Assembly (NCBI RefSeq): GCF_030063205.1 | Contig: NZ_JASISQ010000005.1 | Coordinates: 1 to 64,000, forward strand | From: Arthrobacter antibioticus | Lineage (GTDB): Bacteria > Actinomycetota > Actinomycetes > Actinomycetales > Micrococcaceae | Direction of reading: 5' to 3' | Length of the DNA stretch: 64,000 bases | Shown: positions 1,215-59,634 of the stretch, in pieces | How the letters are laid out: each line of letters starts with the position of its first letter | Numbering within the stretch: position 1 is the stretch's first letter | Translations under genes and position numbers: made by a program | Notes under the pieces: model-generated | Database searches by the model: none | What the model was told of the DNA's origin: nothing | Seen by the model: the letters and a program-made list of their open reading frames with translations, nothing else

Positions 1215-1237
1215 GGCGTCTCTTTTCGTGGAATTTC

Positions 1238-10651: not shown

Positions 10652-10700
10652 CAGGAAAGTCCCGTCCAGCCGATCTCCACGGCTTGGCGGGACTTTCCTG
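10652..10700. terminator. Bidirectional terminator between converging genes
   Basis: Outer stem CAGGAAAGTCCCG pairs with CGGGACTTTCCTG, and an inner CCAGCCG / CGGCTTGG continues the helix. It sits between the converging chitinase and membrane-protein genes and probably serves both. Confidence 0.7.
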
Positions 10701-10713
10701 CATTGCAGCAGGA

Positions 10714-45615: not shown

Positions 45616-45770
45616 ATGACCACCAACGAAGCCGCCAGAGGACACATACCAGGCAAAGAGGGAGTTTTTGCGGCAGAGAACGTCCGCGAAATTTTTGTGG
45701 GGGCCTGCAGCAGCCCGCCTGTGGTGAACTATTTAGTGCCACCAGGCCACGCGAGGAAGCATGAGCATTC

Positions 45771-45818
45771 AAGCCGTTGGACAAGCCGTTGGACAAGCCG
45801 TTGGGCAAGCCGTTGGGC
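45771..45818 (+). repeat. Four tandem 12-base repeats in the pilin leader
   Basis: Four copies of AAGCCGTTGGAC/AAGCCGTTGGGC in a row, encoding SRWT/SRWA units in frame. The last base pairs differ only at one position (A or G). Slippage here would lengthen the leader by four residues without shifting the frame. Confidence 0.9.
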
Positions 45819-45852
45819 AAAGTCAGGCAGGGAAGCGGGCATGGCGACAGCT

Positions 45853-45868
45853 GAATACGCGGCCATGG
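45853..45868 (+). other. attL, left junction of the element
   Basis: The pilin sequence GAATACGC is followed by GGCCATGG, which is unlike the pilin continuation at the right end. Comparing the two ends gives only a short common core, GC or GCCAT, as expected for a serine recombinase. The exact crossover bases need the empty site. Confidence 0.7.
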
Positions 45869-45899
45869 TGTCAAGTCACTAGTGAGATAAACTCATTGC

Positions 45900-47327
45900 A
45901 TGACGACTTCAAAGGGCAAGCGGGCCGCCATCTACACGCGCATCAGCCGGGACACCAAAGGCGAAGGATTGGGCGTGCAGCGCCAGCTGGAAGACTGCCG
46001 TACCCTAGCCCAGCGTATCGGCGCCAAAGTCGTGAAGGAATACTCAGACAATGACGTTTCTGCATTCAGTGGCCGCAAGCGCCCCGAGTACGAAAAGATG
46101 CTGGCCGACATTTCAGCTGGCCGCGTGGAACTCGTCATAGCGTGGAACTCAGACAGGCTTCACCGCCAAACCAAAGAACTCGAACGATACATGGATTTAT
46201 GTTTGCCTCGTGGCGTGGACACTCACACAGTACAGGCTGGCATCCTTGAATTTACCACCGCCAACGGCCGCATGGTCGCGAAAATGCTTGGTGCCGTTTC
46301 ACAGCAAGAATCAGAGCTCAAAGGGGAGCGCATCCGCCGACAGAAAGCCCAGGCAGCCAAAGCCGGAAAGTATTTAGGCGGGCGCGTGCCGTGGGGATGG
46401 CATAAGCAGGGCGACGTGATCGAAGTAGAGCCCATGGCCGGAAAACAGATCCTCGACGGGACACGCGCCATCATCGGTGGTAAGTCTTTGGTGAGCGTCA
46501 CGAGGGCTTGGGCGGATGCTGGCGTGGTCAGCTTGGCAGGAACACCCATGAACACCACTCAAGTGAAGCGGGTTCTTTTGCGGTCCCGAAACGCGGGACT
46601 CACGACCTTTCATGGCGAAGTGGTGGCAGATACATGGCCCGCGATCCTGCCCTTGGAGATGTTCCGCCAGTGCGAAGCAATACTGACCAGCCCCGAGCGC
46701 CCGCAACAGTCAGAGGCCAAATTCAAGTACCTATTGAGCGGGATCATGAAGTGCTATTGCGGAAGATACATGACAGGTTTCGGAGCTGAGGGGCACCGCC
46801 GTAACTATCGGTGCAAGATCCACCAAGAGGGCGGTAAATACGTTCCAGGCCACGCTAACCGAGCAATGTCATCTTTGGATGATTACGTGCTGCGCCTCGC
46901 CGCCGCCTACCTTGACCGCGAAGACTTCAAAGCCGCTGTAATGGCCGATGCCAAGTCACTGGCCGAGCGTGAAGCGCCGGAAGAATCTGCAGACGTTGGG
47001 GAGCTTATTGCGCGCAAGAATTCTTTGGCCCGGATGTTTGCTCAGGGTGTCATCTCAGAGAGTCAGCTAGTGGAGGGCAGTCGCGAAGTTGAACAGAAAC
47101 TCGACTCCATGCAGCAGAGCGCAGCCGCGAATGTCGGTAGTCGGATCATGGCAAGTTTCGCATTTGCCGAGAATGCCGGTGAAGTATTCCTCGCTAAGGA
47201 TACGGACGTAAAACGTGAACTGCTGCGGGTCCTTTTCGATATCACACTGCAGCCGTCAGGGCCTTACCGTGGCACTTTTGATCCTACGACGGTGGACATA
47301 AAACCAATTTTTCAGGTGACGCTTTAG
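45900..47327 (+). CDS. Large serine recombinase (integrase)
   Basis: A 475-residue site-specific recombinase. The catalytic domain starts AAIYTRISRD with the nucleophile Ser16, followed by GVQRQLEDC, DNDVSAFSGRKRPEYEKML and AWNSDRLHRQ. A recombinase domain and a zinc ribbon with the cysteines of MKCYCGRYM and RCKIHQ follow, then a coiled-coil-like region (about 345-420). It begins about 35 bases inside the left junction, the usual place for attP-int. It should catalyse integration at the pilin gene and, with an excision factor, excision. No overlap with other genes. Confidence 0.96.
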   Translation: MTTSKGKRAAIYTRISRDTKGEGLGVQRQLEDCRTLAQRIGAKVVKEYSDNDVSAFSGRKRPEYEKMLADISAGRVELVIAWNSDRLHRQTKELERYMDLCLPRGVDTHTVQAGILEFTTANGRMVAKMLGAVSQQESELKGERIRRQKAQAAKAGKYLGGRVPWGWHKQGDVIEVEPMAGKQILDGTRAIIGGKSLVSVTRAWADAGVVSLAGTPMNTTQVKRVLLRSRNAGLTTFHGEVVADTWPAILPLEMFRQCEAILTSPERPQQSEAKFKYLLSGIMKCYCGRYMTGFGAEGHRRNYRCKIHQEGGKYVPGHANRAMSSLDDYVLRLAAAYLDREDFKAAVMADAKSLAEREAPEESADVGELIARKNSLARMFAQGVISESQLVEGSREVEQKLDSMQQSAAANVGSRIMASFAFAENAGEVFLAKDTDVKRELLRVLFDITLQPSGPYRGTFDPTTVDIKPIFQVTL

Positions 47328-47335
47328 GGCAGCTT

Positions 47336-47363
47336 TTGACACACGTGTACTTTCATGTAAAGT
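47336..47363 (+). promoter_or_regulatory. Possible promoter with an inverted repeat behind the integrase
   Basis: TTGACA (47336-47341) and TAAAGT (47358-47363) are separated by 16 bases. The second hexamer lies within the inverted repeat TACTTT-CATGT-AAAGTA (47349-47365), so a repressor bound there could block the promoter. Confidence 0.4.
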
Positions 47364-47795
47364 ATGACAGTAGAGGCGCACAAGTCTCTGAATCACCAAG
47401 ACCGTCAGAGTACGGCCTCTAGCCTTACAGGTAAGAGTCACCCTCGTGTAGCACTGCGGGGAGTAAGCATTACAGAAGACCGTCGTTTGACGGCAGGCCT
47501 AACAGCCGCAGTAAAGTATTCTCCCGCGCCAAGTTCGCTTCTATGTGTGCATTTCAGTGACACATTAGGACTATGGAGGTCTTTCATGTAAAGTGTCTCA
47601 AAGAGGCCCAGAAGTCTCTAAAAACATAGACAGGACGCAAACCCGGCGTCCCTGTAGCCAAGAAAGAGCTACGGACAGCAGGCATTCGCGCCTGTTAGGA
47701 GCACCGAGTTCCACAAATCCCGAAAATCACCCCATGAAGTTACTGGGAGATACGGGCTTTTCTTATGCCCAAAAACTGAACACCCGCTGAAATTG
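47349..47795 (+). ncRNA. Duplicated, structured non-coding region
   Basis: Two related units begin at 47351 and 47582, 231 bases apart. Each opens with TTTCATGTAAAGT and then AGAGGC-CA-AAGTCTCT. Several helices can be drawn: TAGAGGC/GCCTCTA and CCGTC/GACGG in unit 1; GGACGC/GCGTCC, GTAGC/GCTAC and CAGGC/GCCTG in unit 2. No reasonable protein is encoded. The segment lies between the integrase and the excisionase gene and ends near a terminator. It could be one or two small RNAs, a regulatory leader or a replication/excision region; I cannot assign it to a known family. Confidence 0.45.
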
Positions 47796-47829
47796 AACCG
47801 ATCACACCCCGTGGTCGGTTTTGTTGTTT
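47796..47829 (+). terminator. Terminator ahead of the excisionase gene
   Basis: Ten-pair stem AACCGATCAC / GTGGTCGGTT (one T-G pair) with a short C-rich loop and the tail TTGTTGTTT. It closes the structured non-coding region. Confidence 0.75.
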
Positions 47830-47841
47830 AACCACCACACC

Positions 47842-47865
47842 ATGCCCCGGCTCTCGCTGGGGCAT
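47842..47865 (+). other. Hairpin in the excisionase leader
   Basis: ATGCCCC pairs with GGGGCAT around a ten-base loop, ending about 10 bases before the AAGGAGA of the next gene. It may be a second terminator or a leader stem. Confidence 0.55.
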
Positions 47866-47884
47866 TCCTATTTAAGGAGAAATC

Positions 47885-48067
47885 ATGCCCCGCTCACTCC
47901 CTGAACTGGCTAGCATCAACGAAGCCGCCACGCGCTATAGCTGCCACCCGCGAACAATCCGCCGACTTATTGAGTCTGGAGAAATCGCCGTGTACCGCGT
48001 AGGACCAAAAATCATTCGAATCAACATCTCCGAAACGGACGCTCGATTTCTGCAGGATCGACCGTGA
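47885..48067 (+). CDS. Excisionase-like helix-turn-helix protein
   Basis: A 60-residue DNA-binding protein: LASINEAATRYSCHPRTIRRLIESGEIAVYRVGPKIIRI has the winged helix pattern of the Xis/MerR-BldC excisionase family. The ribosome binding site AAGGAGAAATC is excellent. In serine-recombinase elements such a protein can be the recombination directionality factor, or it can act as a regulator. It starts the run of overlapping small genes of the element. Confidence 0.8.
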   Translation: MPRSLPELASINEAATRYSCHPRTIRRLIESGEIAVYRVGPKIIRINISETDARFLQDRP

Positions 48068-48192
48068 AGAGTCCATACACAGACAAACTGGCCGCCCACA
48101 TCGCCGCCACAGTCGCCACCTGGGCTGCACCAACCCCTGAACAGATCCGCCGCGTAACGGTTCTTCTGCGCCCAACAAGCGGTGATGCCTAA
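48064..48192 (+). CDS. Small phage-type protein of 42 residues
   Basis: Starts at GTG in a four-base overlap with the excisionase-like gene and ends at TAA one base before the next GTG. The product (VKSPYTDKLAAHIAATVATW through VTVLLRPTSGDA) has the pattern of short proteins found next to excisionases in actinobacterial integrative elements, with W-x-P-TPEQIRRV-x-x-LLRP at the end. No function is known. Confidence 0.7.
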   Translation: MKSPYTDKLAAHIAATVATWAAPTPEQIRRVTVLLRPTSGDA

Positions 48193-48441
48193 GTGAAGCC
48201 CGACCGCGTTAACACAAGTGAGCTAGAAACGATCCAACCCCTACCCGATCACACGGGTCTAGTGGCTGGCGTTTACGTCGCAGTGGTGCAAGTACGTGGT
48301 TCAGTCACCGATCCCAAGTACCGCCGCCGCGTTCTATTCAATCTCCCGAGCGCACAAAGGGCAGTGGACAGAGCTCACATGGCAGGGCTTGACGCCAGCA
48401 TTCAACTCTGCCAACTAATCCCAACAGAAGGTGATTTTTAG
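48193..48441 (+). CDS. Hypothetical protein of the element (82 residues)
   Basis: A GTG start directly after the preceding stop codon. The sequence shows an alternating hydrophobic stretch (GLVAGVYVAVVQVRG) followed by a basic RRRVLFNLPSAQRAVDRAHMAG segment, suggesting an alpha/beta fold. I do not recognise the family. It overlaps the next gene by one base, so all genes from 47885 to 49948 form one unit. Confidence 0.65.
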   Translation: MKPDRVNTSELETIQPLPDHTGLVAGVYVAVVQVRGSVTDPKYRRRVLFNLPSAQRAVDRAHMAGLDASIQLCQLIPTEGDF

Positions 48442-48689
48442 TGTCTCAGACACAAGAAAAGGCCCCCGGCAACGAATCCAAGGGCCTAATAAATCTTGCA
48501 CTCAACAGCCTAGCAGAAACCGCCGACGTTCAGCCGCCCCAATGCGACTGCATCAGCCCAGATGACTGGCTATGCCCATCATGCCGCGCCCTGGCGTTAC
48601 CTCAACTCAGAGCCGAAATCAGAAAGAACCTCGTGACGACCATCAGCTTTATCGACGTAAAAGCCGCAAGGGAGCGTGATGCACGATGA
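48441..48689 (+). CDS. Hypothetical protein with a CxC-CPxC zinc-binding pattern
   Basis: An 82-residue protein starting with GTG. Residues about 35-50 contain CDCISPDDWLCPSC, four cysteines arranged like a zinc knuckle. The rest is helical (LNSLAETADV, LPQLRAEIRKNL). Role unknown; a helper of the following ATPase is conceivable because the two genes overlap (ATGA). Confidence 0.6.
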   Translation: MSQTQEKAPGNESKGLINLALNSLAETADVQPPQCDCISPDDWLCPSCRALALPQLRAEIRKNLVTTISFIDVKAARERDAR

Positions 48690-49948
48690 CCGCAACTATG
48701 GACCTAACGAACACTTGGAGCGCTTCGAACGCTTCGAACGGATCATTACTGGGGGAGGTGTTGATCCGTTCGCGGGTATGGCTCAGCCGCTTTATTTGCG
48801 TCATGGATGATGCCGACCTCGACATTCTGGCACTTTGGGCAGTGCATACACATTTCTGTGATGTGAGCTATACAACGCCCCGATTACAGATTGATTCCAC
48901 CATGCCGAACTCAGGCAAAACGACCGTCCTAGAACATCTTGAACGTCTCTCCTTCAATCCGTTACAGGCATCCTCCATCAGTTCCCCGGCACTGATTCCC
49001 CGGATGATCGACAAGGGACTAACCACCATCTTGATTGACGAAGCGGACAGGACCCTTGACCCGAAGAAACCCGAGGTTGGGGAACTCATTGCGATCATCA
49101 ACGCCGGTTACAAACGCGGCGCTTCTCGCCCCACTCTTGTTCCCGTAGCTGGGGGTGGCTGGGATGTTCACCGTATGCCGACATACTCCCCAATTGCCAT
49201 AGCCGGAAACGCACCTGCACTTCCGGATGACACGAGAACACGCATTATCCGCGTTCTACTCATGCCGGACTTCAACGGCACCGTGGAGGAATCCGACTGG
49301 GAAAACATCGAACCCATGGCAGGAGACCTTCTCGAAGCAATCAGCCAAGCTGCGGACGAATTCCGCGAAAACGTCAGGACAGCACGCCCCGAACTTCCCG
49401 AGGGATGCATTGGGCGCATGAAAGAGAAATGGAACCCACTACGCCGAATTGCCGAAGTAGCAGGCGGACGGTGGCCCGGAGTCGTTGACGAGCTCATACG
49501 AAGGGACATTGAAGAAGTGAATATGGAACGAGCGGACGGAATTTCCAAACTCCCACCAGCGGTAACCCTACTCAGGGACGTTCACGCAACCTGGGGGGAC
49601 ACCCTATTCAAACCATCAAGCGTCATTGCCTTACAGCTCGCCAAGCACAATCCAGAAATGTGGGGGATGCAGAACTACATGGGTAAAACGATCACGACTA
49701 AGCGCATGGCAGGAATGCTTTCCCAAGCTTTCAAGATTCATTCCAAGCAGCGATCAGACGGCGACCGAGCCCGAGGATATTACCGGGCCGAGTTCGAGAA
49801 CGCTTGGGAACGGTTCGGGCACACACCCCCTAATCAATCCGTTCCATCCGTTCAAAGCTCACCATCCGTTCAGAATCTCCCCATTTGCACCGAATGCGGC
49901 GACCTGCTCGACGACACCGAAACCAACATTCACCAGGCATGTGCATGA
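48686..49948 (+). CDS. DUF3631 ATPase, probable replication protein of the element
   Basis: A 420-residue P-loop protein of the DUF3631 type. Walker A lies at residues 71-80 (STMPNSGKTT), Walker B at 115-121 (ILIDEAD), and the DUF3631 core follows (NAGYKRGASRPTL, TYSPIAIAGNAPALPDDTRTRIIRVLL, KWNPLRRIAEVAGG). Such proteins sit at the helicase/primase position of actinobacterial phages and integrative elements; helicase loading or replication is the usual guess. The C-terminal 35 residues (from QSVPSVQSSPSVQ) form a short repeat and end in a CxxC...C pattern. Confidence 0.85.
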   Translation: MTATMDLTNTWSASNASNGSLLGEVLIRSRVWLSRFICVMDDADLDILALWAVHTHFCDVSYTTPRLQIDSTMPNSGKTTVLEHLERLSFNPLQASSISSPALIPRMIDKGLTTILIDEADRTLDPKKPEVGELIAIINAGYKRGASRPTLVPVAGGGWDVHRMPTYSPIAIAGNAPALPDDTRTRIIRVLLMPDFNGTVEESDWENIEPMAGDLLEAISQAADEFRENVRTARPELPEGCIGRMKEKWNPLRRIAEVAGGRWPGVVDELIRRDIEEVNMERADGISKLPPAVTLLRDVHATWGDTLFKPSSVIALQLAKHNPEMWGMQNYMGKTITTKRMAGMLSQAFKIHSKQRSDGDRARGYYRAEFENAWERFGHTPPNQSVPSVQSSPSVQNLPICTECGDLLDDTETNIHQACA

Positions 49949-49977
49949 ACACCGCGAACCACCAAGGAGATAAGACG

Positions 49978-50175
49978 ATGACCAATCACATGCACCCCAA
50001 GACCATCGCCCCGCACATTACCAATTTCGTTGACAATCAGGCGCTCATGCTCGACGGCCCTGCCTGCCACGACTGTAACGCCGAGGTTGAAGCGTTCATC
50101 AACGGCCCCATCGTCGCCGTGAACGTCATGCACGAGGGCACTTGCCCCACCTACCGGAAACGGGTAACTAAATGA
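49978..50175 (+). CDS. Small hypothetical protein with CxxC motif
   Basis: A 65-residue protein with the ribosome binding site AAGGAGATAAGACG ahead of the ATG. It carries CHDCNAEVEAF and a later lone Cys (GTCPTYRK), a possible metal site. It overlaps the next gene by four bases. Confidence 0.6.
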   Translation: MTNHMHPKTIAPHITNFVDNQALMLDGPACHDCNAEVEAFINGPIVAVNVMHEGTCPTYRKRVTK

Positions 50176-50360
50176 CCACCAACGGATGCTCATACTGCAA
50201 AGCCGCTCTTGAAGGATGGGGGCTTCGGGGGTCCACTGCCCACCATCCAGAGTGCCCGAGCCAGTACATGCCCCGCCCACGCCCCCACAGTTTGCCCATG
50301 ATGGACGCCGCAGGAAACCCGTCACAGCCCCTCGAAACCACACCAGCAGAACAGGAATAG
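50172..50360 (+). CDS. Small hypothetical protein with CxxC and HHxxC motifs
   Basis: A 62-residue protein in ATGA overlap with its predecessor. CSYCKAALEGWG and HHPECPS suggest a small zinc-binding fold, the rest is Pro-rich. Similar one-domain zinc proteins are frequent in phage-like actinobacterial islands. Confidence 0.6.
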   Translation: MTTNGCSYCKAALEGWGLRGSTAHHPECPSQYMPRPRPHSLPMMDAAGNPSQPLETTPAEQE

Positions 50361-50363
50361 GGC

Positions 50364-50603
50364 ATGTCAACTAATACTTGGACACCATTCATCTCAGGCC
50401 CCGAACAGTGGACGAACAACATACGTTCGATAGAAGTACGCCAAGCCAAACTGACCACCCCTAACGGCGAAAACACCCTAGGGCTATTCATCAAACAAGC
50501 CCGCACTTGGCTCGTCATCCCAGACTCAGTAGCCATAGAAATGGCAAACGACATTCTTGACGCCATCGAAACCCGCACCACCGCTGAGATTGACCCCGCA
50601 TAG
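50364..50603 (+). CDS. Hypothetical protein of the element (79 residues)
   Basis: An acidic protein with a beta-rich middle (NNIRSIEVRQAKL, ENTLGLFIKQ, TWLVIPDS) and a C-terminal helix (AIEMANDILDAIETRT). Begins three bases after the preceding stop codon. Not recognised. Confidence 0.6.
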   Translation: MSTNTWTPFISGPEQWTNNIRSIEVRQAKLTTPNGENTLGLFIKQARTWLVIPDSVAIEMANDILDAIETRTTAEIDPA

Positions 50604-50629
50604 CCCGCGAAGGAGACCGAGAACCGCCA

Positions 50630-50908
50630 ATGCCACGAACCACCATAATTCACCCCATCACCATCCACGACCGATCAGTAACCATCAAATGCCCGCGCTG
50701 CGGAGACCTCCACCAGTACCACGCCGAAGAACTCAAACCCTGGCCCATACGCCCCGGACACGAACGCACCGTCACAGCACAGTGCTACCGCACAGACAGA
50801 CGCATGGCCGCTGCTGGCAACAGCAACGCTGCAAACGCCCTCACATGGGGACCCGGCATAACAAACACATTCACCATCAAATTCCAAAGACAGGAACCCA
50901 CACAATGA
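50630..50908 (+). CDS. Hypothetical protein with CPRCG motif
   Basis: A 92-residue protein with a CPRCGDLHQYH segment near residue 22, an Arg/Gln-rich end and few hydrophobic stretches. From this gene on the plus strand becomes conspicuously rich in A and C, including third codon positions. It overlaps the next short gene by four bases. Confidence 0.55.
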   Translation: MPRTTIIHPITIHDRSVTIKCPRCGDLHQYHAEELKPWPIRPGHERTVTAQCYRTDRRMAAAGNSNAANALTWGPGITNTFTIKFQRQEPTQ

Positions 50909-51051
50909 CCGAAAACCGAGCCACCGACGCAGGACGACAAATCTACCTACAACAACACGGGAAAGCACCAGAACCACTAGAACCCGTGACACCCGACCCC
51001 GGCACCACAGACGCCGGACGTGCCATCTACCAAACCAAAAACAACCGCTAG
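50905..51051 (+). CDS. 48-residue protein with two internal repeats
   Basis: Begins with ATG in an ATGA overlap. Two copies of the pattern x-T-DAGRxIY (ATDAGRQIYLQQHGK and TTDAGRAIYQTKNNR) make up most of the chain. No known family. Confidence 0.55.
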   Translation: MTENRATDAGRQIYLQQHGKAPEPLEPVTPDPGTTDAGRAIYQTKNNR

Positions 51052-51065
51052 AAAAGGACCACACA

Positions 51066-51842
51066 ATGCGCACCTACGATATGACCCCCAACGGCGAACG
51101 CCCCCAAGACCCCCAAACCCTAGCTACCATCCTGCGCCGCCTAAAGCTCAACCTACCCAAAGACATCACAGACGGCCCACCCACAACACACGCCATCGGT
51201 GCAAGCCAGCTCATCGAAAAGGTACTGCCCTACGCTGACCACATGGCAGCCGCAGCCCGTGCAGTCCTCAACGGAGAAAGCCCCGCACAACACCTCGCAC
51301 TCGCCGCAGCCGAAAATATGCGCATCCCACTAGCCCAAGCCATCGTAGAACTTGGCTCACAAACCTACGTGGACAAACTCAACACCAACGCCGACAACAT
51401 CATCAAGGCCCTCCGTGCCGAGATATTCAACCCCGCCATAGGCCAACTCACCGCACTCATCGACAACGCCCCCCACGCCTCATGGGATCTAGACACAGCC
51501 CTAGCCGAAGGCGACTACAAACAAGCGCAGATCATCAAAGACAACGCCGACATCATCACCCGCCTGGAACAAACCGAAAAGGCCCGCCGAATCCTACACA
51601 GCGGAGCATTCACCGGAGACGCAGCATGGACCCAAGAGCCCGGCAGCATCGACAAAACCGGAGAGCCCAACCCAAAAAAACTCTCATGGTGGGCAACACT
51701 CATCCGCGACGGATACAACCCCATCTTCCCCACCGTCAGTGAATGGCAAAAACTCCACAACAGCACAGCCCACGCAGACTACAGGGCAAGCCAAGAAGTC
51801 ACCGTAGAAGTCTTCCAACTCGGAACAGAACTACACAACTAA
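51066..51842 (+). CDS. Hypothetical 258-residue protein of the element
   Basis: A soluble, largely helical protein of unknown function. It contains HLALAAAENMRIPLAQAIVELGSQTYVDKLNTN and a C-terminal segment rich in Trp and Lys (KKLSWWATLIRDGYNP). The DNA is strongly A/C-rich on this strand. A terminator follows at 51854. Its position, last in the first block of element genes, resembles that of phage replication or regulatory proteins, but I have no motif to support a function. Confidence 0.65.
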   Translation: MRTYDMTPNGERPQDPQTLATILRRLKLNLPKDITDGPPTTHAIGASQLIEKVLPYADHMAAAARAVLNGESPAQHLALAAAENMRIPLAQAIVELGSQTYVDKLNTNADNIIKALRAEIFNPAIGQLTALIDNAPHASWDLDTALAEGDYKQAQIIKDNADIITRLEQTEKARRILHSGAFTGDAAWTQEPGSIDKTGEPNPKKLSWWATLIRDGYNPIFPTVSEWQKLHNSTAHADYRASQEVTVEVFQLGTELHN

Positions 51843-51853
51843 CAACAGAACCA

Positions 51854-51883
51854 ATGGCCGCGTCAATCACACGGCGCGGCCAT
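51854..51883 (+). terminator. Terminator after the first element gene block
   Basis: Stem ATGGCCGCG / CGCGGCCAT with a 12-base loop, 12 bases past the stop codon. The tail is only weakly T-rich. Confidence 0.7.
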
Positions 51884-52204
51884 TGCACTAACCGAATGAC
51901 CCAGGGGAGTGCCCCCTCCCCACACCACCGCCAGGCCCACCCCAGGCTATAGGGCCAATACCCCCGTGGGGTTCGCTCCAAACGGGCTGACCATGTGTCA
52001 AGCCCTCCGAGGGGTGTCTCTGACGTGCCAGACAGTGGTTTAGCGGCATATTTGCCCTGCCAAATTTTCCAGTCCGGCACAGGATGCTAAGCTTCAAGAT
52101 CCGCGTGTTTACAAGGATTATCCGTGACAATTCGCCAAAGGATGAATGCGTGCAGGGGAGCCCATTTCCCGTCGGTTCAAAGATGAACCGGGACGCCCAC
52201 AACG

Positions 52205-52224
52205 ACCGCCAAACGGCGGTTTTG
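52205..52224 (+). terminator. Small GC hairpin with T run
   Basis: ACCGCC / GGCGGT with an AAAC loop and TTTTG behind. It would end a transcript that starts upstream, perhaps a small RNA. Confidence 0.5.
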
Positions 52225-52599
52225 TGCCCGTAGTGTGGGAAAACGTCGAAACAGGGCTGTGTGGAAAAAACGTCATGAGTGAAAATGGCACTATAGCCGG
52301 GGGAGTGCCCAGCGTGGGGAGGGGAGGGTCCTATCCCCAGGGCGCGTTGACCACTCTGGGGCTTCGGTTTTGGTGGGATTCATGCGCCCAGCGTTGCCAG
52401 GTTTTGCGCTGACGATTCTGTTAAAATTGAGGGAGCGTGAACGTCGCGGGTACCTCACCACGCGGTGGGGCTGAACGATGGTTTGGAGCGGTTGCGTCCG
52501 CATTGATAGGCCAGCGCTTTGACGGGCAAGCTCTGGCGTGTTCTTTGAAAGGAACTCCCCTAACCAACGGGCGACCGGAGGCCGTCAGCTTTGTGGAAT

Positions 52600-52627
52600 C
52601 CCCGGCCAGCCAGTAAGCCGGCCGGGG
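52600..52627 (-). terminator. GC-rich hairpin after the 148-residue gene
   Basis: CCCCGGCC pairs with GGCCGGGG around a 12-base loop, 23 bases past the stop codon of the minus-strand gene. No T run follows. Confidence 0.55.
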
Positions 52628-52649
52628 GTCCTTAGTCGTTTGTGGTGTT

Positions 52650-53096
52650 CTAGCTTGCGTCTAGTTCTGCAAACAGGGCGCGTGCGAGTGCTTTCCAAGC
52701 TCTAGCTGGGATAGTGGGGTCATCGGTGAGCAGCCCGGCAACAAAATCCGCATCGTCTTGAATGGTTGGGTCCCATTCCCAGCCATCGCGGCCGTAGATT
52801 TGGTGACCTCCCAATTCGCCATCGTCCCAGTAGTAAGGCACTCGCGGTGTCTGCACTCGCTCATTAGCGCTGGTCAATACGATGTATGGATCTTGGGTAG
52901 GCACATTAAAATCGAATACCTTGTCCATCGCGGGAAATCTAATGCGGTGTCCCCACGACCGCCACGCGTTCTCGAAAGCAAATTCCAGAGGCATTTTAGC
53001 GCCGGGCAATTCGTAACGTTCGAGAATGCACATGCCTAGCGCGATTCCGGCCGACACTGCCTTGTATTGAAAATCTCTATTCGGGGATTTTTGCAT
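52650..53096 (-). CDS. Hypothetical protein divergent from the cargo operon
   Basis: A 148-residue soluble protein of unknown family. It contains MCILERYELPGAKMPLEFAF, a Trp/Tyr/Asp-rich region (YYWDDGELGGHQIYGRDGWEW) and ends in a helix (RAWKALARALFAELDAS). The ATG at 53096 is preferred because a TATACT hexamer (53108-53103) lies six bases before it, which fits a leaderless start; the open frame reaches 53156 with no ribosome binding site. It shares a compact promoter region with the NUDIX-phosphatase-transferase operon, and might be its partner, for example an immunity or sensor protein. Confidence 0.65.
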   Translation of the reverse strand: MQKSPNRDFQYKAVSAGIALGMCILERYELPGAKMPLEFAFENAWRSWGHRIRFPAMDKVFDFNVPTQDPYIVLTSANERVQTPRVPYYWDDGELGGHQIYGRDGWEWDPTIQDDADFVAGLLTDDPTIPARAWKALARALFAELDAS

Positions 53097-53102
53097 ACGG
53101 CC

Positions 53103-53136
53103 AGTATATTGACCTCCACTGACCTCAGGGTATGGG
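53103..53136. promoter_or_regulatory. Overlapping divergent promoters with a TGACCTC direct repeat
   Basis: On the plus strand TTGACC (53109-53114) and TATGGG (53131-53136) are 16 bases apart and face the cargo operon. On the minus strand TATACT (53108-53103) faces the 148-residue gene. TGACCTC occurs twice (53110 and 53121), eleven bases apart, as expected for a regulator bound on one face of the helix. Confidence 0.4.
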
Positions 53137-53244
53137 CTCACCACTACTTGGGGCATGGTGTCAGCTGCGCTGACGGCATTGGATGGGGTGCGTCCGTCAC
53201 TGCGGCGGGCTGCAATAAGGCACTCAAATTAGAAAGGACACATC

Positions 53245-53730
53245 ATGGAGGCTTCTGGATTGAGGCTCAATAACGTAGGTCTAGCGCACTTGAATAGCGA
53301 AGCATGGGTTTATGGCAATGATGGTCAACGATATTGGGGTCGCTATGGCGCCGCAGGAATCCTTGTCTATGACTCCAACAGCAATATTCTGATGCAAAAG
53401 AGAGCAGCATGGACTGACGATGGATGTACGTGGTGCGTTCCCGGCGGCGCTTTGCGGTTCGGCGAGTCTGCGGTTGATGGTGCATTGCGTGAGGCGGGCG
53501 AAGAATGCGGACTACCTGAGGCATCCCTGCACATAGTTGGAACACATGAGTTCGATCTAGATTTCTGGAAGTACACCACTGTTGTTGCGAGCGTAGAAGA
53601 ACGTTTCGATGCTATCTCAGACTTTGAGTCCACAGAGCATAGATGGGTAGGAATCAAAGATATAACGGGGATGCGCTTGCATCCTGCTCTCAGGGCTTCA
53701 TGGCCGTCACTTAGAAAGTTGATCAAATGA
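53245..53730 (+). CDS. NUDIX hydrolase, first gene of the cargo operon
   Basis: A 161-residue NUDIX protein. The box GGALRFGESAVDGALREAGEECGL matches Gx5Ex7REUxEExGU completely, so it should be active. The N-terminal part has GILVYDSNSNILMQKRA. Its position ahead of a tyrosine phosphatase and an ADP-ribosyltransferase-like protein suggests handling of ADP-ribose or another nucleotide product, but many NUDIX substrates are possible. A good ribosome binding site, GAAAGGACACATC, precedes it. It overlaps the phosphatase gene by four bases. Confidence 0.88.
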   Translation: MEASGLRLNNVGLAHLNSEAWVYGNDGQRYWGRYGAAGILVYDSNSNILMQKRAAWTDDGCTWCVPGGALRFGESAVDGALREAGEECGLPEASLHIVGTHEFDLDFWKYTTVVASVEERFDAISDFESTEHRWVGIKDITGMRLHPALRASWPSLRKLIK

Positions 53731-54197
53731 GAATCGTTTTTGTCTGTATCGGGAACGTTTGCAGGTCTCCTTCTGCCGAGATTGTTCTAAAAGACATGCT
53801 GCATGGTGTTGGTCAAGAAGATGTTGAGGTTTGGTCTGCTGGCGTTCAGGTTAAGCACGGTGAGCCTGTGGACCCGGTTTCACTCGAGGTGCTAACTGCG
53901 AATGGGTATGACGGCGCTTCGGCTGGTTCGCAACCGTTCGCATGGGGGTGGGCTGATACCGCAGATTTGATATTACCTATGGACTCCTTCACCAGATCGA
54001 TTCTAAGAATCAGAATTACTGACAAGAGCCTCCATAAGAAGATCCGTAGCTTCGCCGATTTCTGCCCAGGAGTCACTAATCCAGACATTTTCAATCCATG
54101 GGGACATGAGCGCGTGATCTATGAATCTGTATTTCAAACTATTGAGCAAGGATGCGCTGGCATCATGGAAGGAATTCAGTATGGACGTTTGGGGTAG
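53727..54197 (+). CDS. Low-molecular-weight protein tyrosine phosphatase
   Basis: A 156-residue phosphatase of the LMW-PTP/arsenate reductase family. The P-loop is C7-IGNVC-R13 followed by SPSAE; the general acid is probably D120 in NPDIFNPWG. VWSAGVQVKHGEPVDP and the ADLILPMD region agree with the fold. Such enzymes dephosphorylate tyrosine in wall-polysaccharide regulators or protein arginine phosphate; in this element the target is unknown. The ATGA overlap with NUDIX and a 17-base overlap with the next gene show that the three products are made together. Confidence 0.9.
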   Translation: MRIVFVCIGNVCRSPSAEIVLKDMLHGVGQEDVEVWSAGVQVKHGEPVDPVSLEVLTANGYDGASAGSQPFAWGWADTADLILPMDSFTRSILRIRITDKSLHKKIRSFADFCPGVTNPDIFNPWGHERVIYESVFQTIEQGCAGIMEGIQYGRLG

Positions 54198-54702
54198 CTT
54201 TATGAATCGGCGGCAAACCACACCGCAGGACTTGTGGGACGAGTTCGATTCAGGAGAATTGAAACCAGACTTTGCGAAGCGAGTCTTGGGACAGTATTTC
54301 AATGAGCGCTGGCCATGTTGGAATCTCAGCCGCAATAAGTGGATCACTATGTTCACATATGCCAAAGAGCATTACGATGGTGATGATGTCAGGTTCCAGC
54401 CTCTACCCGAGGCGCCGGAAGGTAGGCAGCTATACCGAGGCGCGCCAAACCAGTCGCGCCGTGGCGTGTCGTGGACCACGTCACTCCACGTTGCTCGCAT
54501 GTTCGCCGGTTCATCTCAGTACAACTTCAATAGTGGTGCGTCGATCTGGACTGTCCAAATGACACCTGAAATGTTCTTGGCGCAGCCTAGGCTTATCGAG
54601 GGTGAGATGGAGGTCCTTGTGGACATTGGAGATGTGCAGCCTGCGAAGTACGAGTCCGCAGCACAGGTTTGGAAGTGGTTTACTACAGACCCCATGGTTT
54701 GA
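54181..54702 (+). CDS. ADP-ribosyltransferase-like protein (R-S-E pattern)
   Basis: A 173-residue protein. It has the three parts of the mono-ADP-ribosyltransferase pattern in correct order: YRG (Y85-R86-G87), SWTTS (97-101) and E-G-E-M-E (140-144), with VARMFAGS and IWTVQM strands between. An R-S-E pattern marks arginine-type or related ADP-ribosyltransferases; the DNA- or protein-targeting class cannot be told. ATG 54181 follows AAGGAATTCAGT and overlaps the phosphatase end by 17 bases; an ATG at 54121 lies further in the phosphatase gene. The hypothesis of a toxin or phage-defence effector comes from the context and the motif only. Confidence 0.65.
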   Translation: MDVWGSFMNRRQTTPQDLWDEFDSGELKPDFAKRVLGQYFNERWPCWNLSRNKWITMFTYAKEHYDGDDVRFQPLPEAPEGRQLYRGAPNQSRRGVSWTTSLHVARMFAGSSQYNFNSGASIWTVQMTPEMFLAQPRLIEGEMEVLVDIGDVQPAKYESAAQVWKWFTTDPMV

Positions 54703-54719
54703 TTTTGAATCAGGTCAGG

Positions 54720-54944
54720 TTAGACCAGTTCGGCCGGATCGACCTTGAACACATAGGCGAAGGCGCACACGTCGTTTACGGTGAGCACTGTTTCTCCTGC
54801 AAGCTTGCGGCGCATCCTTGCAGCGGAGAGGCCGACGCTATCAGCAATGGCTTTGCGGGGCAGTGTGGACGTTTCTACAAGCTGGCGGATATGGGTCAAG
54901 GTGTGGTTGTACTGTTCAGCGATGGCGGGGTTGAGAGTTTTCAT
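54720..54944 (-). CDS. Small HTH regulator of the element
   Basis: A 74-residue protein whose C-terminal half is a helix-turn-helix (RKAIADSVGLSAARMRRKLAG, then TVNDVCAFAYVFKVDP). ATG 54944 has AAGGAGATCCACC before it. The sequence is related to the C-terminal part of the 138-residue protein at 55369-55785 (RKEIAAAVGCSQDTLRRKLNG), so the two are paralogues. It ends 17 bases from the stop codon of the ADP-ribosyltransferase-like gene, which it converges with. Confidence 0.78.
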   Translation of the reverse strand: MKTLNPAIAEQYNHTLTHIRQLVETSTLPRKAIADSVGLSAARMRRKLAGETVLTVNDVCAFAYVFKVDPAELV

Positions 54945-55306
54945 GGTGGATCTCCTTGGGTTGTTGGTGGTGACGTTATAGGCAGGGTGTGACATTGAGC
55001 GGGACTCAAGATGAAACGGACCTAAAGGGCTGGCCTTGCAAGTCCCCTACCGCCGACGATTCCCAAAGCCCCCGCCAACTCTCAGCGATATTTGAACGCC
55101 TGTAGCCCGCCGGGAAGATCCGGGCAGGCTGGCGTCACCCGGTACCCCGGCCGTGGGTATCGGTAGCCATGCGGTTATGGCTTGAAGGTTGGTATGAACA
55201 CCGCGCCCTATTGAGTAAGTCGAAGGGCTGGAAGACTCAGGCAGAAACCTGGAAACGAGCAGGTTCGTCAAATTGACGATCTTGCTTGCATCCCGGCCGC
55301 TGCCAG

Positions 55307-55331
55307 TAGGTCGCGTTTCAAACGCGACCTA
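55307..55331. repeat. Perfect palindrome, 12-base arms
   Basis: TAGGTCGCGTTT-C-AAACGCGACCTA. It abuts a second palindrome and is followed by no T run, so an operator or structured RNA fits better than a terminator. Confidence 0.7.
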
Positions 55332-55353
55332 GCCCGGATTTGAAATCCGGGCT
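55331..55353. repeat. Perfect palindrome, 11-base arms
   Basis: AGCCCGGATTT-G-AAATCCGGGCT, immediately beside the previous palindrome; both have a TTTcAAA or TTTgAAA centre. It lies 16 bases past the stop codon of the 138-residue HTH gene. Confidence 0.7.
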
Positions 55354-55368
55354 GGCAGGGCTGGGAGG

Positions 55369-55785
55369 TTAGACGAGTTCCGACATGCGGCAGCCTAAGA
55401 TACGGGATAGGGAACCAATGTTGCGAACGGTCAGCATCGACTTACCGTTTAATTTGCGGCGTAACGTGTCCTGAGAACATCCAACGGCAGCAGCAATTTC
55501 CTTACGAGTGGCAGCGGAATTTGAAACGCGAGTGTTGATCTTGGCAAGCATCGCATCGTAGTAGCTGTAAGGCCCTGCCGTGGTGAGTAGTTCTTCAGTG
55601 AGCATGACGTACTCGACACGCAGCGTTGACGGCATATCTGCTGCGTCGGCATCGTCCCAAGTGACATGGACGAATGTTCCGTGAGCTGTTGGCTCTAGAG
55701 CGGTAACAGTGCCCATCTCACCTGTTGCCCGGTGTTTGGCACGCATGGGGACGGCCATGTTTTCAGTGCTGACAATGTTGTTCAT
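55369..55785 (-). CDS. HTH regulator of the element (138 residues)
   Basis: An N-terminal beta-rich domain (MAVPMRAKHRATGEMGTVTAL, then FVHVTWDDADAADMPSTLRVEYV) precedes a C-terminal HTH (ATRKEIAAAVGCSQDTLRRKL, NIGSLSRILGCRMSELV). The C-terminal part is paralogous to the protein at 54720. The start codon overlaps the stop of the small membrane peptide (ATGA), so the two are translated together. Probably a repressor of the element. Confidence 0.78.
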   Translation of the reverse strand: MNNIVSTENMAVPMRAKHRATGEMGTVTALEPTAHGTFVHVTWDDADAADMPSTLRVEYVMLTEELLTTAGPYSYYDAMLAKINTRVSNSAATRKEIAAAVGCSQDTLRRKLNGKSMLTVRNIGSLSRILGCRMSELV

Positions 55786-55910
55786 GCTCCCACCACGCTC
55801 TCAGCCAGAACACCAATGATGCCGGGGGAAAGTAGGATGCACGCTGAAATGAGCGTGTAGAAAACGAATTGCACTGTGCCTTGCACGGCGCGGGCTGTAA
55901 GGTTGTTCAT
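55782..55910 (-). CDS. 42-residue membrane peptide at the right end of the element
   Basis: Encodes MNNLTARAVQGTVQFVFYTL, then a continuous hydrophobic run (ISACILLSPGIIGVLAESVV). One transmembrane helix is predicted. ATG 55910 follows AAGGACCGGCAAC, and the stop codon overlaps the HTH gene start. Small hydrophobic peptides beside a repressor are typical of toxin, holin or superinfection-exclusion genes, but no function can be assigned. Confidence 0.7.
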   Translation of the reverse strand: MNNLTARAVQGTVQFVFYTLISACILLSPGIIGVLAESVVGA

Positions 55911-55976
55911 GTTGCCGGTCCTTTTCACTGGTAGCCACGCCTCGGAGGACTGTCATCCTGCCGGGGCATTTCCCGC

Positions 55977-55998
55977 ATTTGAACGGGTAACTTCAAAT
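55977..55998. repeat. Inverted repeat next to the right junction
   Basis: ATTTGAA and TTCAAAT around eight bases, ending 13 bases before the right junction. It may be part of the attP arm recognised by the recombinase or excisionase. Confidence 0.45.
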
Positions 55999-56003
55999 AG
56001 TCT

Positions 56004-56021
56004 CCCCATATGCCATCGCAA
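56004..56021 (+). other. attR, right junction of the element
   Basis: Element sequence CCCCATAT runs into GCCATCGCAACG, the continuation of the pilin gene. The stretch shared with the left end is short (GC or GCCAT). Confidence 0.7.
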
Positions 56022-56125
56022 CGTTGGCGGCTGTGGGGTTTGCCGGGCTCCTTGTTGTAATTCTCAAAAGTGACGAGGTACGGGGATTCTTGCTGAACAT
56101 TATCCGAACAGCCCTGAGCTTCTAG
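56012..56125 (+). pseudogene. 3' part of the DUF4244/Flp-type pilin gene
   Basis: Read in frame with the left half this gives A-I-A-T-LAAVGFAGLLVVILK, then SDEVRGFLLNIIRTALSF and a stop. This is the typical transmembrane and C-terminal part of DUF4244 pilins. It has no start codon or ribosome binding site of its own. Precise excision of the element would restore a pilin gene of about 126 codons. The gene downstream, tadE, is separated from the pilin promoter by the element and may lose expression too. Confidence 0.88.
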
Positions 56126-56176
56126 CCCCGGAAAAAGGCACCAATCACCGGGCGTGAGTGTGGGAGGAGGAAAGTA

Positions 56177-56809
56177 ATGCAGCCACAGGAAAAACATAGA
56201 CGCGTGATCCGAATGCGGCGCCAGCATTCATTCTGGCCAGGCAGGGGCCGCAGAGTATCTGTCCTTAGGAAAGAGACATTAGGTGGAGTCCGGAATGCGA
56301 AAGCTGAGACAGGATCGGTGACAGCTGAATTCGCCATTTTACTGCCGGCGATGACGGTTCTTCTTGCTATTTTGCTGTTCAGTGTTGCGGCTGGCATCTT
56401 GCAATTGCGTTTGGAGGAGGGTGCTAGAGCAGGGGCTCGCGCCCTGGCTCGAGGCGATTCTTCAGTGGAGGTCCTGGAAATTGTGGCCCGGGTGTCGGGG
56501 CAGAAAGTAGATGTCTCCGTGGGGACGTCCGGCGGCTATGCCACCGTTACAGTTCAGGGCCGAGTTGGAGGGGTTCTCTCCGGTCTCATTCAATGGACCC
56601 AAACTGCGCATTCCAGCGTCAAGGTAGAAGCACAAACGGCACTTTTACTTGTCCGGCACAAGCCAATACAAAGGAATCTTCTTGGCGGAGCTAGGGCGCT
56701 CAGGACCGCACTGTGGCGGTGGGCCCGGTCTGATGAATATCTGTTTCGATCGGGTCTGTGTGGGGGATCGGCCTTAGCTCTGAGCGGTAGTTGTGTTGTC
56801 CGCGGGTGA
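56177..56809 (+). CDS. tadE: TadE-family pseudopilin
   Basis: A 210-residue pseudopilin-like protein of the Tad system. Residues 48-72 form the TadE signature: ETGSVTAEFAILLPAMTVLL, with Glu after the processing site. The ribosome binding site GGAGGAGGAAAGTA is strong and could support an independent start. The C-terminal 60 residues after VEAQTALLL diverge from other TadE proteins and look Arg-rich; a frameshift or fusion near 56660 is possible. It overlaps the following gene by 17 bases. It corresponds to Rv3655c. Confidence 0.88.
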   Translation: MQPQEKHRRVIRMRRQHSFWPGRGRRVSVLRKETLGGVRNAKAETGSVTAEFAILLPAMTVLLAILLFSVAAGILQLRLEEGARAGARALARGDSSVEVLEIVARVSGQKVDVSVGTSGGYATVTVQGRVGGVLSGLIQWTQTAHSSVKVEAQTALLLVRHKPIQRNLLGGARALRTALWRWARSDEYLFRSGLCGGSALALSGSCVVRG

Positions 56810-57167
56810 GCGAGGCTCGGGAACGGTATTGGCTGCCGGGCTTGCGCTGACCATGCTTATACTCATGGTTTTGATCCTAGGGTTAGCTCAAGCAGCGGCC
56901 GCAGCTGCCAAGGCAGCCACCGCCGCGGATATGGCCGCCCTTGCGGCGGCAGATACTTACCGAGGGCTTACAGAGGGAGAGCCGTGCCTCGTTGCTGCTG
57001 ACGTGGCAGGGCGGCACGGAGCCATACTTATTGGGTGCATTGCGGCAGGTGATTTCTCGGTACAGGTAGAGGTTCACTTGGCAACTGGTATGGGGGTTCC
57101 CTTGCAGGCAACCGGCAAGGCCAGAGCAGGCCCACCTCCGGACTCCAGCCCACCGCTGCAGCCCTGA
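56793..57167 (+). CDS. Second TadE-like protein of the secretion neighbourhood
   Basis: A 124-residue protein with one N-terminal helix (GTVLAAGLALTMLILMVLIL) preceded by GERGS, the form of the helicase/secretion neighbourhood TadE-like proteins (Rv3654c). It then has AAKAATAADMAALAAADTYRG, a conserved alanine-rich helix of that group. Probably a minor pseudopilin. The start is a GTG at 56793 within the tadE end and lacks a strong ribosome binding site, so coupled translation is likely. Confidence 0.82.
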   Translation: MLSAGERGSGTVLAAGLALTMLILMVLILGLAQAAAAAAKAATAADMAALAAADTYRGLTEGEPCLVAADVAGRHGAILIGCIAAGDFSVQVEVHLATGMGVPLQATGKARAGPPPDSSPPLQP

Positions 57168-57303
57168 TAGCTATCACAAAGCCTGACTTAACGTTGGTTC
57201 CTACGCTGTTTTCCACCACGACTACCCGGGCCTAAGCAGGGCAATTACTCCAAGGACTTCATTTCGGTGTTTTGCTTCCAGGACCTTCATTGCGGCCCCA
57301 TCG

Positions 57304-59634
57304 TTACGGTGCGTTGTTAAGCAAGATCTGCAGCAGCAGGACTGCGCCGGCTTTATCCAAGGGGTTATTCTTGTTGCCGCATTTAGGGGATTGGACACAT
57401 GAGGGGCACCCGGACTGACACTCACACGCTTGGATAGCTTCCATGGTGGCCCTGAGCCAGACACGAGCCATATCGAATCCACGCTCGGCAAACCCCGCAC
57501 CTCCGGGATGGCCGTCATAGACAAACACTGTTGGTTGTCCGGTGTCAGCGTGAATGGCGGTGGATACGCCGCCAACATCCCATCTGTCGCTGGAGGCGAC
57601 TAGTGGGAGCAGGCCGATGGCCGCATGCTCGGCGGCGTGCAGGGCACCCGGAAATTGTGGTTCCACCAGGCCACCGGCTAGCAGCGTCGCATTGTCCACG
57701 GTGAACCAGACAGCCTTGGTGAAGAGGTCCCTGGCTTCTAGCTCCAGCGGTTCCTCGCCCAATACTTCATTGGAGATGATGGCCTTACGTTGGAAGGAAA
57801 CAACCTGGGTTTGGACTTGGACGGATCCAAAGTGCATTTCCACCGGGCCCCACAATTCGTGTTTTGTCGATTCCAGCACCTCGATCTGTGTGACATCTCG
57901 TGCAGTGGTGTAGAAATCTGGTGTGCCACGGCGTACCAGGGCGCAATGCTCTGCCTCATTGAGTTCAAGCACCACGTAATTTGTCCCCTGATGAACGTAG
58001 ACGGCGCCTGTATGAGCTTGATAGTGGGACTGCGGCGAGCCCATTGTTCCCAGCAGAGTACCGGTGTCTGCCTCAATGATGTTGATGGGCCCACCACCGT
58101 CTTCACGCAGATTTACCATGGCGGCTGCGTTTTGAGGATGTGTCCAAAACCAACCGGCAGGACGTTTTCGCAAATATCCCTGCGCTACCAACTGCTCCAG
58201 TAAAGCAGGAGTAGTTGAGTCAAAAAGGGCCAAGTCCTGTTCAGTGATGGGAAGCTCCGCGGCAGCTGCACAGAGGTGAGGACCAAGAACGTATGGATTG
58301 GCAGGATCGAACACTGTAGCCTCCACCGCCCGGTCAAAGATTGCTTCCGGATGGTGAACCAGGAATGTGTCCAACGGGTCATCGCTTGCCACAAACGCGG
58401 CCAAGGCGTCTTGGCCGGACCGCCCTGCCCTGCCGATCTGTTGAAAGAAGGAGGCTCTAGTGCCTGGCCAGCCAGCAACCAGGACGGCGTCCAGGCCGGA
58501 GATGTCAATGCCAAGTTCCAGTGCAGAAGTACTTGAAACACCCAGAAGGTCTCCCGCACGCAAAGCCTTCTCAAGCTCACGGCGCTCCTCCGGCAAATAA
58601 CCTGAACGGTAAGCAGCAACCCGAGGAGGAAGACTCGGATCCACGTCCTCCAAGAGTCTTTTGGTCACACTAGAGATGGTTTCAGCGCCGCGCCTAGACT
58701 TTATGAATGCAATGGTCCGAACATGCGAGGAGACAAGGTTAGCTAACAAATCAGAGGTTTCAGCAATGGCAGTGCGACGGGACTTGGCTCCGTTCTCACC
58801 CTTAAAGTCGGTCAACTCCGGCTCCCACAAGGCAACTGTGGTTGCACCATGAGGGGAGCAGTCTTCAGTGCTGGTCGTGACGTCTGCTCCGATTAGACGA
58901 GAAAAGGCAGTGCCAGGATCCGCAGAAGTGGCTGAAGCCCCAATGAAAACAGGCTCTGACCCGTAGTGCGCGCATATCCGGCGCAATCGACGAAGCAGCA
59001 CGGCCACATGGGAGCCGAAAACGCCGCGGTAACTGTGGGCTTCATCGACGATGACATATTTCAGACGCTTGAAAAAATGGGCCCACCACGTGTGGTTGGG
59101 CAGGACACCAAAATGGAGCATATCCGGATTGCACAAGATGAAATTACTGTGGTCCCGAATCCAACGACGGTCAGTTGTGGCAGTGTCACCGTCGTAAGTG
59201 GAAGCACGAAGAGTGGACAGTTTCAGTGCGTTCAACGCGGCCAGTTGGTCTGCGGCGAGCGCCTTGGTGGGAGAAAGATACAAGGCAACTGCGCCGTTGG
59301 CCTCTAGTTGGCCAGGATTTTCCCTTACCGCAAGTGCGGCTCTATGAACAGCATCGACCGCGGGCAGCTGATACGCCAGGGACTTCCCCGAAGCTGTTCC
59401 TGTTGCGATGATTGTGTGCTGGCCCTGGTGGGCGGCGTTAGCTCCTAGTATCTGGTGACGCCACGGCTGCACCACGCCAAGGAATGAATAGGCGCTGACA
59501 AGGTCGGGATGGACCCACTCGGGCCATGCCTCGTTGATGGCTTGCCGGGACGGAATCCTGTGGACGTGTTGCAATTGCGGAGGATTCATTCCTCCGCCCA
59601 GCAAAGAGATCAACGAAGTATTTGTGGGCATCAC
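57304..59634 (-). CDS. DEAH-box helicase of the secretion neighbourhood
   Basis: A 776-residue superfamily 2 helicase. The N-terminal RecA-like domain has TGTASGKSLAYQLP (Walker A), KYVIVDEAHSYRGVFG (DEAH motif II) and GASATSADP (motif III). The second domain has SSTSALELGIDISGLDAVL and QQIGRAGRSGQDALA (motif VI). The C-terminal DUF1998-like region ends in the cysteine cluster CECQSGCPSC...CGNKNNPLDK. The family, Rv3649 in mycobacteria, is related to Hrq1/MrfA repair helicases that clear DNA crosslinks. It converges with the Tad operon and is not part of its transcript. Confidence 0.93.
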   Translation of the reverse strand: MMPTNTSLISLLGGGMNPPQLQHVHRIPSRQAINEAWPEWVHPDLVSAYSFLGVVQPWRHQILGANAAHQGQHTIIATGTASGKSLAYQLPAVDAVHRAALAVRENPGQLEANGAVALYLSPTKALAADQLAALNALKLSTLRASTYDGDTATTDRRWIRDHSNFILCNPDMLHFGVLPNHTWWAHFFKRLKYVIVDEAHSYRGVFGSHVAVLLRRLRRICAHYGSEPVFIGASATSADPGTAFSRLIGADVTTSTEDCSPHGATTVALWEPELTDFKGENGAKSRRTAIAETSDLLANLVSSHVRTIAFIKSRRGAETISSVTKRLLEDVDPSLPPRVAAYRSGYLPEERRELEKALRAGDLLGVSSTSALELGIDISGLDAVLVAGWPGTRASFFQQIGRAGRSGQDALAAFVASDDPLDTFLVHHPEAIFDRAVEATVFDPANPYVLGPHLCAAAAELPITEQDLALFDSTTPALLEQLVAQGYLRKRPAGWFWTHPQNAAAMVNLREDGGGPINIIEADTGTLLGTMGSPQSHYQAHTGAVYVHQGTNYVVLELNEAEHCALVRRGTPDFYTTARDVTQIEVLESTKHELWGPVEMHFGSVQVQTQVVSFQRKAIISNEVLGEEPLELEARDLFTKAVWFTVDNATLLAGGLVEPQFPGALHAAEHAAIGLLPLVASSDRWDVGGVSTAIHADTGQPTVFVYDGHPGGAGFAERGFDMARVWLRATMEAIQACECQSGCPSCVQSPKCGNKNNPLDKAGAVLLLQILLNNAP

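Follow-up and report, generated by a model that had tools for sequence, protein, structure and literature searches.

A three-gene cargo operon encoding a predicted ADP-ribosyltransferase in an integrated mobile element of Arthrobacter antibioticus

An integrated mobile element of Arthrobacter antibioticus carries three overlapping genes, which encode a NUDIX hydrolase, a protein with the low-molecular-weight protein tyrosine phosphatase (LMW-PTP) fold, and a third protein, ORF3, that is very probably an R-S-E-type ADP-ribosyltransferase (ART), as predicted from motif conservation, a structural model and structural matches. The element lies in the first 64,000 nucleotides (nt) of contig NZ_JASISQ010000005.1, the whole of which was analyzed and is called the window here. 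In the reading we favor, with a probability of roughly 0.45, the three genes would be translated in a coupled manner as a single operon within the cargo of a small integrative element, and ORF3 would most likely act as effector in a conflict module of the anti-phage or toxin type. This reading starts from the gene layout, the motifs, the family membership, the mobile setting and the defense-type genes near some relatives, from which we infer catalysis, a target, toxicity and joint action of the three products.

A first-pass annotation, made from the letters alone, had described three overlapping genes, and the open reading frames (ORFs) are indeed present, with an overlap of 4 nt (ATGA) between the NUDIX and PTP genes and of 17 nt between the PTP and ORF3 genes (Table 1). 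Every start has a purine-rich stretch on its 5' side, AGAAAGGA for NUDIX, TAGAAAG for PTP and GGAAGGA for ORF3, each a plausible ribosome-binding site; ORF3 also has an alternative, longer in-frame ATG at 54121.

The residues that led to the first ART call on ORF3 (R86, S97-W98-T99-T100-S101 and E142-M-E144) are present as described, and their conservation in relatives is beyond chance. In an alignment of ORF3 with 16 relatives of 16 to 30% identity, R86, S97, W98 and A105 are invariant in all 17 sequences, and T99 is kept in 16, the exception being a Ser in the relative from G404. E142 and E144 are present in each of the 16 sequences that extend so far; the other one, L114, is truncated by a contig end. 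Left out of this alignment were L112 and L116, which repeat L111 and L115, L104, whose frame is broken, further cuts of places already represented, and the G501 piece, which ends before R86. Structure prediction of the 54181-54702 product, the check suggested at first, gave an AlphaFold2 model (predicted local distance difference test score, 73; predicted template modeling score, 0.71) with the split-sheet topology of an ART, and its matches to known structures in VIA-align belong mostly to the ART superfamily. Tpt1 had the best Z score (6.5), rows within 1 of it being tied. Rifampin ART, RES and Tpt1/KptA were considered as the family of ORF3 and not adopted, because of the Z ties and because the R-S-E residues favor the toxin-type clade, which we take to comprise cholera-toxin-like enzymes, ParT and their relatives.

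ORF3 thus resembles R-S-E mono-ADP-ribosyltransferases in its strand-1 Arg, Ser-x-Thr, Glu-x-Glu and predicted ART-like fold. It carries a helical N-terminal region some 75 residues long, and it differs from them in matching no solved structure in PDB by sequence, singly or as a profile, and no Pfam (best E value, 0.23) or NCBIfam model. If the assignment is right, ORF3 would be a mono-ADP-ribosyltransferase that binds NAD+, held by R86 and S97/T99, and would attach ADP-ribose to its target by means of a catalytic glutamate, E144.

Among named families, ORF3 is closest to phrog_4776, annotated "unknown function," which takes in the mycobacteriophage proteins Catdawg gp78, DirkDirk gp114 and DrLupo gp66. 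The direct match of ORF3 (E value, 7.6e-4; residues 67 to 158) is weak alone, and it is supported because Curtobacterium relatives of ORF3 act as intermediates, matching the family at 4e-20 and 2e-16. The three phage proteins carry the R-S-E residues of ORF3 and are themselves predicted ADP-ribosyltransferases; they have the catalytic core and conserved residues in common with ORF3, while their N-terminal part is longer and different. Conserved residues and the model would link a phage and plasmid family of "unknown function" to ADP-ribosyltransferases, although phrog_4776 may already stand as an ART in supplementary ART lists, for example those of PMC9503650.

Family relatives occur in 88 phage records at E values up to 0.1. 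Viral contigs yielded no relative with ORF3 and A2 as queries, nor did tblastn of phages with ORF3 and its Saccharothrix relative. Three of 394 other genomes of the family have an ORF3 relative; a further match, in G372 (L007), is a frame antisense to another gene, lacks the motifs and was excluded from the counts. A class-wide profile search found relatives in at least 3 of 296 genomes, our own included, which is an undercount since the best 12 candidates per genome were scored, and a scan of genome contigs found the Kocuria place only.

The two upstream products belong to familiar families. The NUDIX protein matches Pfam PF00293 (E value, 6e-15), and the NUDIX box reported earlier is complete, with the pattern Gx5Ex7REUxEExGU satisfied by GALRFGESAVDGALREAGEECGL at residues 68 to 90. 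It is related to a NUDIX family of actinobacteria, from which it has diverged, and a second copy, 44% identical, lies in the same genome (G000:C11); relatives were found in 127 of 226 sampled genomes of the class at an E value of 1e-12, the own genome counted. Pfam gave NUDIX matches only, with no helix-turn-helix (HTH) or other fused domain in its 161 residues. Among the PADLOC models, PDC-S07 (4.5e-7) was the sole match to the NUDIX protein, so that no defense model beyond the generic domain was hit, and the products of ORF3, the PTP gene and the divergent gene at 52650 matched no PADLOC defense model. For the NUDIX enzyme the most plausible role in the module, a putative one, would be to process ADP-ribose or another such nucleoside-diphosphate product, or to keep the damage from it in check. 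Separately, two Streptomyces plasmids (L044, 3977-7555; L045, 3980-7339) hold genes of about 3.4 to 3.6 kb whose products start with a NUDIX domain resembling that of the window.

The second protein matches Pfam PF01451 (E value, 1e-23), and the P-loop noted at first is intact (Cx5RS, as C7-IGNVC-R13-S14). Its D-loop, on which the first-pass annotation was silent, reads N123-P124 in place of the general acid Asp before Pro. Asp-Pro stands there in all 58 relatives that extend over the site (a script read 57 of them, and L147, VPDPYYGG, was read by eye), both L033 and L147 reading PDPY; the alignment comprised the 59 of 61 PTP loci that passed an E value limit of 1e-4, including a second copy from the same genome, and L039 does not reach the site. 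The three PDB alignments displayed likewise read DP. LMW-PTPs require the D-loop Asp as general acid (PMC7316235 and PMC7948962), and the D119A change in VvWzb almost abolished activity (PMC7948962). Because of Asn123, which may be an assembly error, an active tyrosine phosphatase was rejected as the default reading. The protein, of putative role in the module like its NUDIX neighbor, is less plausibly an ordinary tyrosine phosphatase than a phospho-ligand binder, a regulator or an enzyme that acts slowly on an activated phosphate. Its relatives are also widespread (103 of 226 sampled genomes of the class, at the same limit and with the own genome counted).

Indirect support for the proposed role comes from the neighbors of ORF3 relatives. 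In G253 the adjoining divergent gene encodes a PDC-S06 candidate defense protein (1.6e-173), and genes close by encode a serine recombinase and an ATPase resembling mad3 (1e-30). The relative in G404 is followed, after 74 to 248 nt, by a gene for a type II methyltransferase (1.1e-192). In Kocuria rosea (G161, L080) it lies 81 to 246 nt after a gene for a 1237-residue NACHT protein on the same strand, in a possible two-gene system, and a RecD-like match (1e-13 to 1e-17) follows downstream; in G038, HEC-05/GmrSD (3e-213) and AbiTii (2.5e-13) lie about 9 to 11 kb away. A type IIG restriction-modification enzyme in a related element, that of G073, also favors a conflict role. Together with the link to ADP-ribosyltransferases, the four family members beside or near defense-type genes give a directly testable hypothesis for phrog_4776.

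The four are all the chromosomal ORF3 relatives that could be read with 16 kb of context or more, and each adjoins, or lies within 11 kb of, defense-type genes; this is a raw count without a background rate, from ORFs chosen by hand. Several observations weigh against a joint anti-phage or toxin operon. The NACHT protein had only a 0.001 match in PADLOC, the 12 ORFs scanned around the five plasmid relatives included no convincing defense neighbor, and the short G501 locus showed no defense gene in the 1 ORF scanned. The original suggestion that the phosphatase processes or reverses a modification is weakened by the loss of the catalytic Asp. Finally, two or more of the NUDIX, PTP, ART and 52650 genes were found together in 0 of 173 other loci (tblastn, E value up to 0.01; six further cuts, from the place of the window itself, excluded), so a conserved three-gene operon was rejected for this sample. 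Absence of the set from other genomes was what the first-pass annotation had named as refuting its proposal, and by that rule the conserved set fails in our sample, where it was found nowhere else.

The 173 loci comprise 61 with a PTP relative, 60 with a NUDIX relative, 15 with an ART relative and 4 with a relative of the 52650 gene. Some places are represented by several cuts, the 15 ART loci amounting to 9 distinct places and one false match, and loci from the genome search were flanked on either side by about 1.5 kb, which reveals a coupled gene and not a distant one. ORF3 relatives occur without NUDIX or PTP neighbors, and vice versa. Because the set was seen once, the main rival is that the cargo was stacked from independent acquisitions: the slot would collect single genes, the ART would be the sole conflict gene, and NUDIX and the PTP-fold protein would be passengers sharing its transcript. 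We regard this as a real possibility, one that fits the lack of any pair of the four cargo genes elsewhere, the wide spread of NUDIX and PTP relatives, the plasmid ORF3 relatives without a nearby NUDIX or PTP relative and the three mycobacteriophage loci opened, none of which has either annotated beside the ART. However, the 4- and 17-nt overlaps and the separate ribosome-binding sites imply selection for coexpression, or at least a settled operon, and the lower G+C content common to the three genes (50.8%, versus 55.7% in the rest of the element) is as expected from joint acquisition.

The mobile setting itself, proposed at first reading, is borne out by the empty site in a genome of the same species, G128 (L087), which is uninterrupted there: L087 1-613 corresponds to window 45244-45857 and L087 611-4201 to 56008-59597, the two flanks matching at 99% and 98% identity. 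Since G128 lacks the insert, the DNA of about 10.15 kb arrived as a unit. The insertion splits a gene after the codons for MATAEYA; with a TadE-like neighbor present, the split gene reads as a Flp-type pilin from its sequence and the neighboring Tad genes, without a profile match. The best ten phage matches listed for the serine recombinase are 31 to 35% identical, most of them annotated as integrase. DUF3631 is RepAM, the replication initiator of actinobacterial integrative conjugative elements, according to PMC3218068, and the window's element shares with those elements a serine integrase and DUF3631/RepAM; it differs in that no FtsK/SpoIIIE transfer protein like theirs was found by Pfam among the 13 ORFs scanned of the 15 listed for it.

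The divergent gene beside the operon, listed earlier as a single gene of no known kind, is supported as real by relatives of 29 to 41% identity, among them one in G042 (L122, 41%) and others on one plasmid each of Micrococcus luteus and Gordonia. A start at 53096 is preferred to 53156 because the alignments of relatives begin at residue 20 to 27 of the longer frame; neither start has a well-placed ribosome-binding site. Among related elements, the G052 sister has small proteins 68 to 71% identical to those of the window's element, an HTH_3 protein at 54%, DUF3631 at 30% and a serine recombinase at 28%, and a stretch close to its end is 40% identical to the small HTH-like protein. It also encodes a phage terminase small subunit (Terminase_7, 3e-24), which hints at a phage-satellite-like element family. 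The operon has no counterpart in the G052 or G073 elements. The latter also holds an ORF that resembles a tyrosine integrase by appearance, without a profile scan.

Table 1. Features of the window and of related loci
Feature	Coordinates	Strand	Basis or remark
NUDIX hydrolase, complete NUDIX box	53245..53730	+	161 aa; Pfam PF00293
LMW-PTP-fold protein with intact P-loop and with Asn123 in place of the general acid Asp	53727..54197	+	156 aa; Pfam PF01451
ORF3, predicted R-S-E-type ADP-ribosyltransferase, phrog_4776 family	54181..54702	+	173 aa from ATG at 54181
Integrated mobile element, ~10.15 kb	45858..56007		Site uninterrupted in G128 (same species)
Serine recombinase (Resolvase, Recombinase, Zn_ribbon_recom)	45900..47327	+	Pfam
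DUF3631 (RepAM-type) replication protein	48686..49948	+	Pfam PF12307, E 2e-18
Divergent gene, small actinobacterial family	52650..53096	-	ORF extends to 53156; 53096 start preferred
Small HTH-like protein	54720..54995	-	Pfam HTH_31 1.8e-5, below its cut-off
HTH_3 protein	55369..55785	-	Pfam HTH_3 8e-6
Sister element	L102 (G052:C116) 31-10756		Serine recombinase, DUF3631, Prim-Pol-like match 3e-4 (just below cut-off), Terminase_7
Element relative	L099 (G073:C135) 1539-9578		DUF3631 50% identical, beside type IIG restriction-modification enzyme as possible cargo
NACHT protein, repetitive C-terminal half	L080 1804-6276		Precedes ORF3 relative
Catdawg gp78, phrog_4776	L105 2129-2854		Annotated hypothetical
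DirkDirk gp114, phrog_4776	L106 1228-1824		Annotated hypothetical
DrLupo gp66, phrog_4776	L107 1138-1911		Annotated hypothetical

Two further explanations of the cargo are less probable. ORF3 could be the ART toxin of an addiction module that stabilizes the element and is neutralized by NUDIX, the PTP-fold protein or the 52650-53096 protein; this is unlikely, as NCBIfam and Pfam scans of the four cargo proteins gave no known antitoxin family, and the fetched loci of ORF3 relatives lack relatives of all three antidote candidates. Nor was a macrodomain, NADAR, ADP-ribosylglycohydrolase or other recognized antidote found in them by Pfam at E values up to 1, or a macrodomain or NADAR by NCBIfam. 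The anti-phage or toxin role advanced at first keeps its indirect support from neighboring genes, and its antidote half found no recognized candidate in the Pfam scan. Phage-encoded ARTs such as T4 Alt and Mod modify host proteins, and it is very improbable that ORF3 likewise serves the replication or spread of the element rather than host defense: its nearest family is mycobacteriophage phrog_4776 and the G052 sister has a terminase gene, but ORF3 has no counterpart in the part common to the sister elements, and its four chromosomal relatives adjoin or lie near defense-type genes.

An anti-phage or toxin operon with ORF3 as effector can be set beside known conflict systems. DarTG, ParST and CmdTAC are ART-based toxin or anti-phage systems, and the antidote of the DarTG type is a macrodomain or NADAR. 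The operon resembles them in having an ART effector with a partner gene and differs in that Pfam found no macrodomain, NADAR or other recognized partner in its cargo. In open-licensed literature, judged by titles and abstract openings, we did not find the combination of an ART, a NUDIX protein and an LMW-PTP or other phosphatase. Iyer et al. 2022 (PMC9503650) predict ADP-ribosylglycohydrolase-phosphatase-Nudix systems for phage conflict, also in actinobacteria. As far as the available text of that paper goes, these systems, like ours, join the chemistry of ADP-ribose to a Nudix domain and a Cys-dependent phosphatase within one neighborhood. Theirs, however, have a glycohydrolase and were picked for lacking a coupled ART, their phosphatases are mostly of the rhodanese-phosphatase superfamily and their Nudix (or WYL) is fused to an HTH regulator, whereas here there is an ART, an LMW-PTP fold with a lost acid and a stand-alone NUDIX with an intact box. 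Because those systems lack a coupled ART and mostly have other phosphatases, the window's locus is not a member of them. We consider it a long shot that the operon is a new ART phage-defense module in which an enzyme of the phage-shared ART family places ADP-ribose on an essential target, of host or phage, the stand-alone NUDIX senses or trims what results, and the acid-less phosphatase fold is a phospho-sensor that keeps the system off until infection, in place of the known macrodomain or glycohydrolase antidotes. If the three products act together, they would form an ART conflict module partnered by a NUDIX protein and a catalytically altered phosphatase fold, which may be a new small bacterial defense or toxin module alongside those already described.
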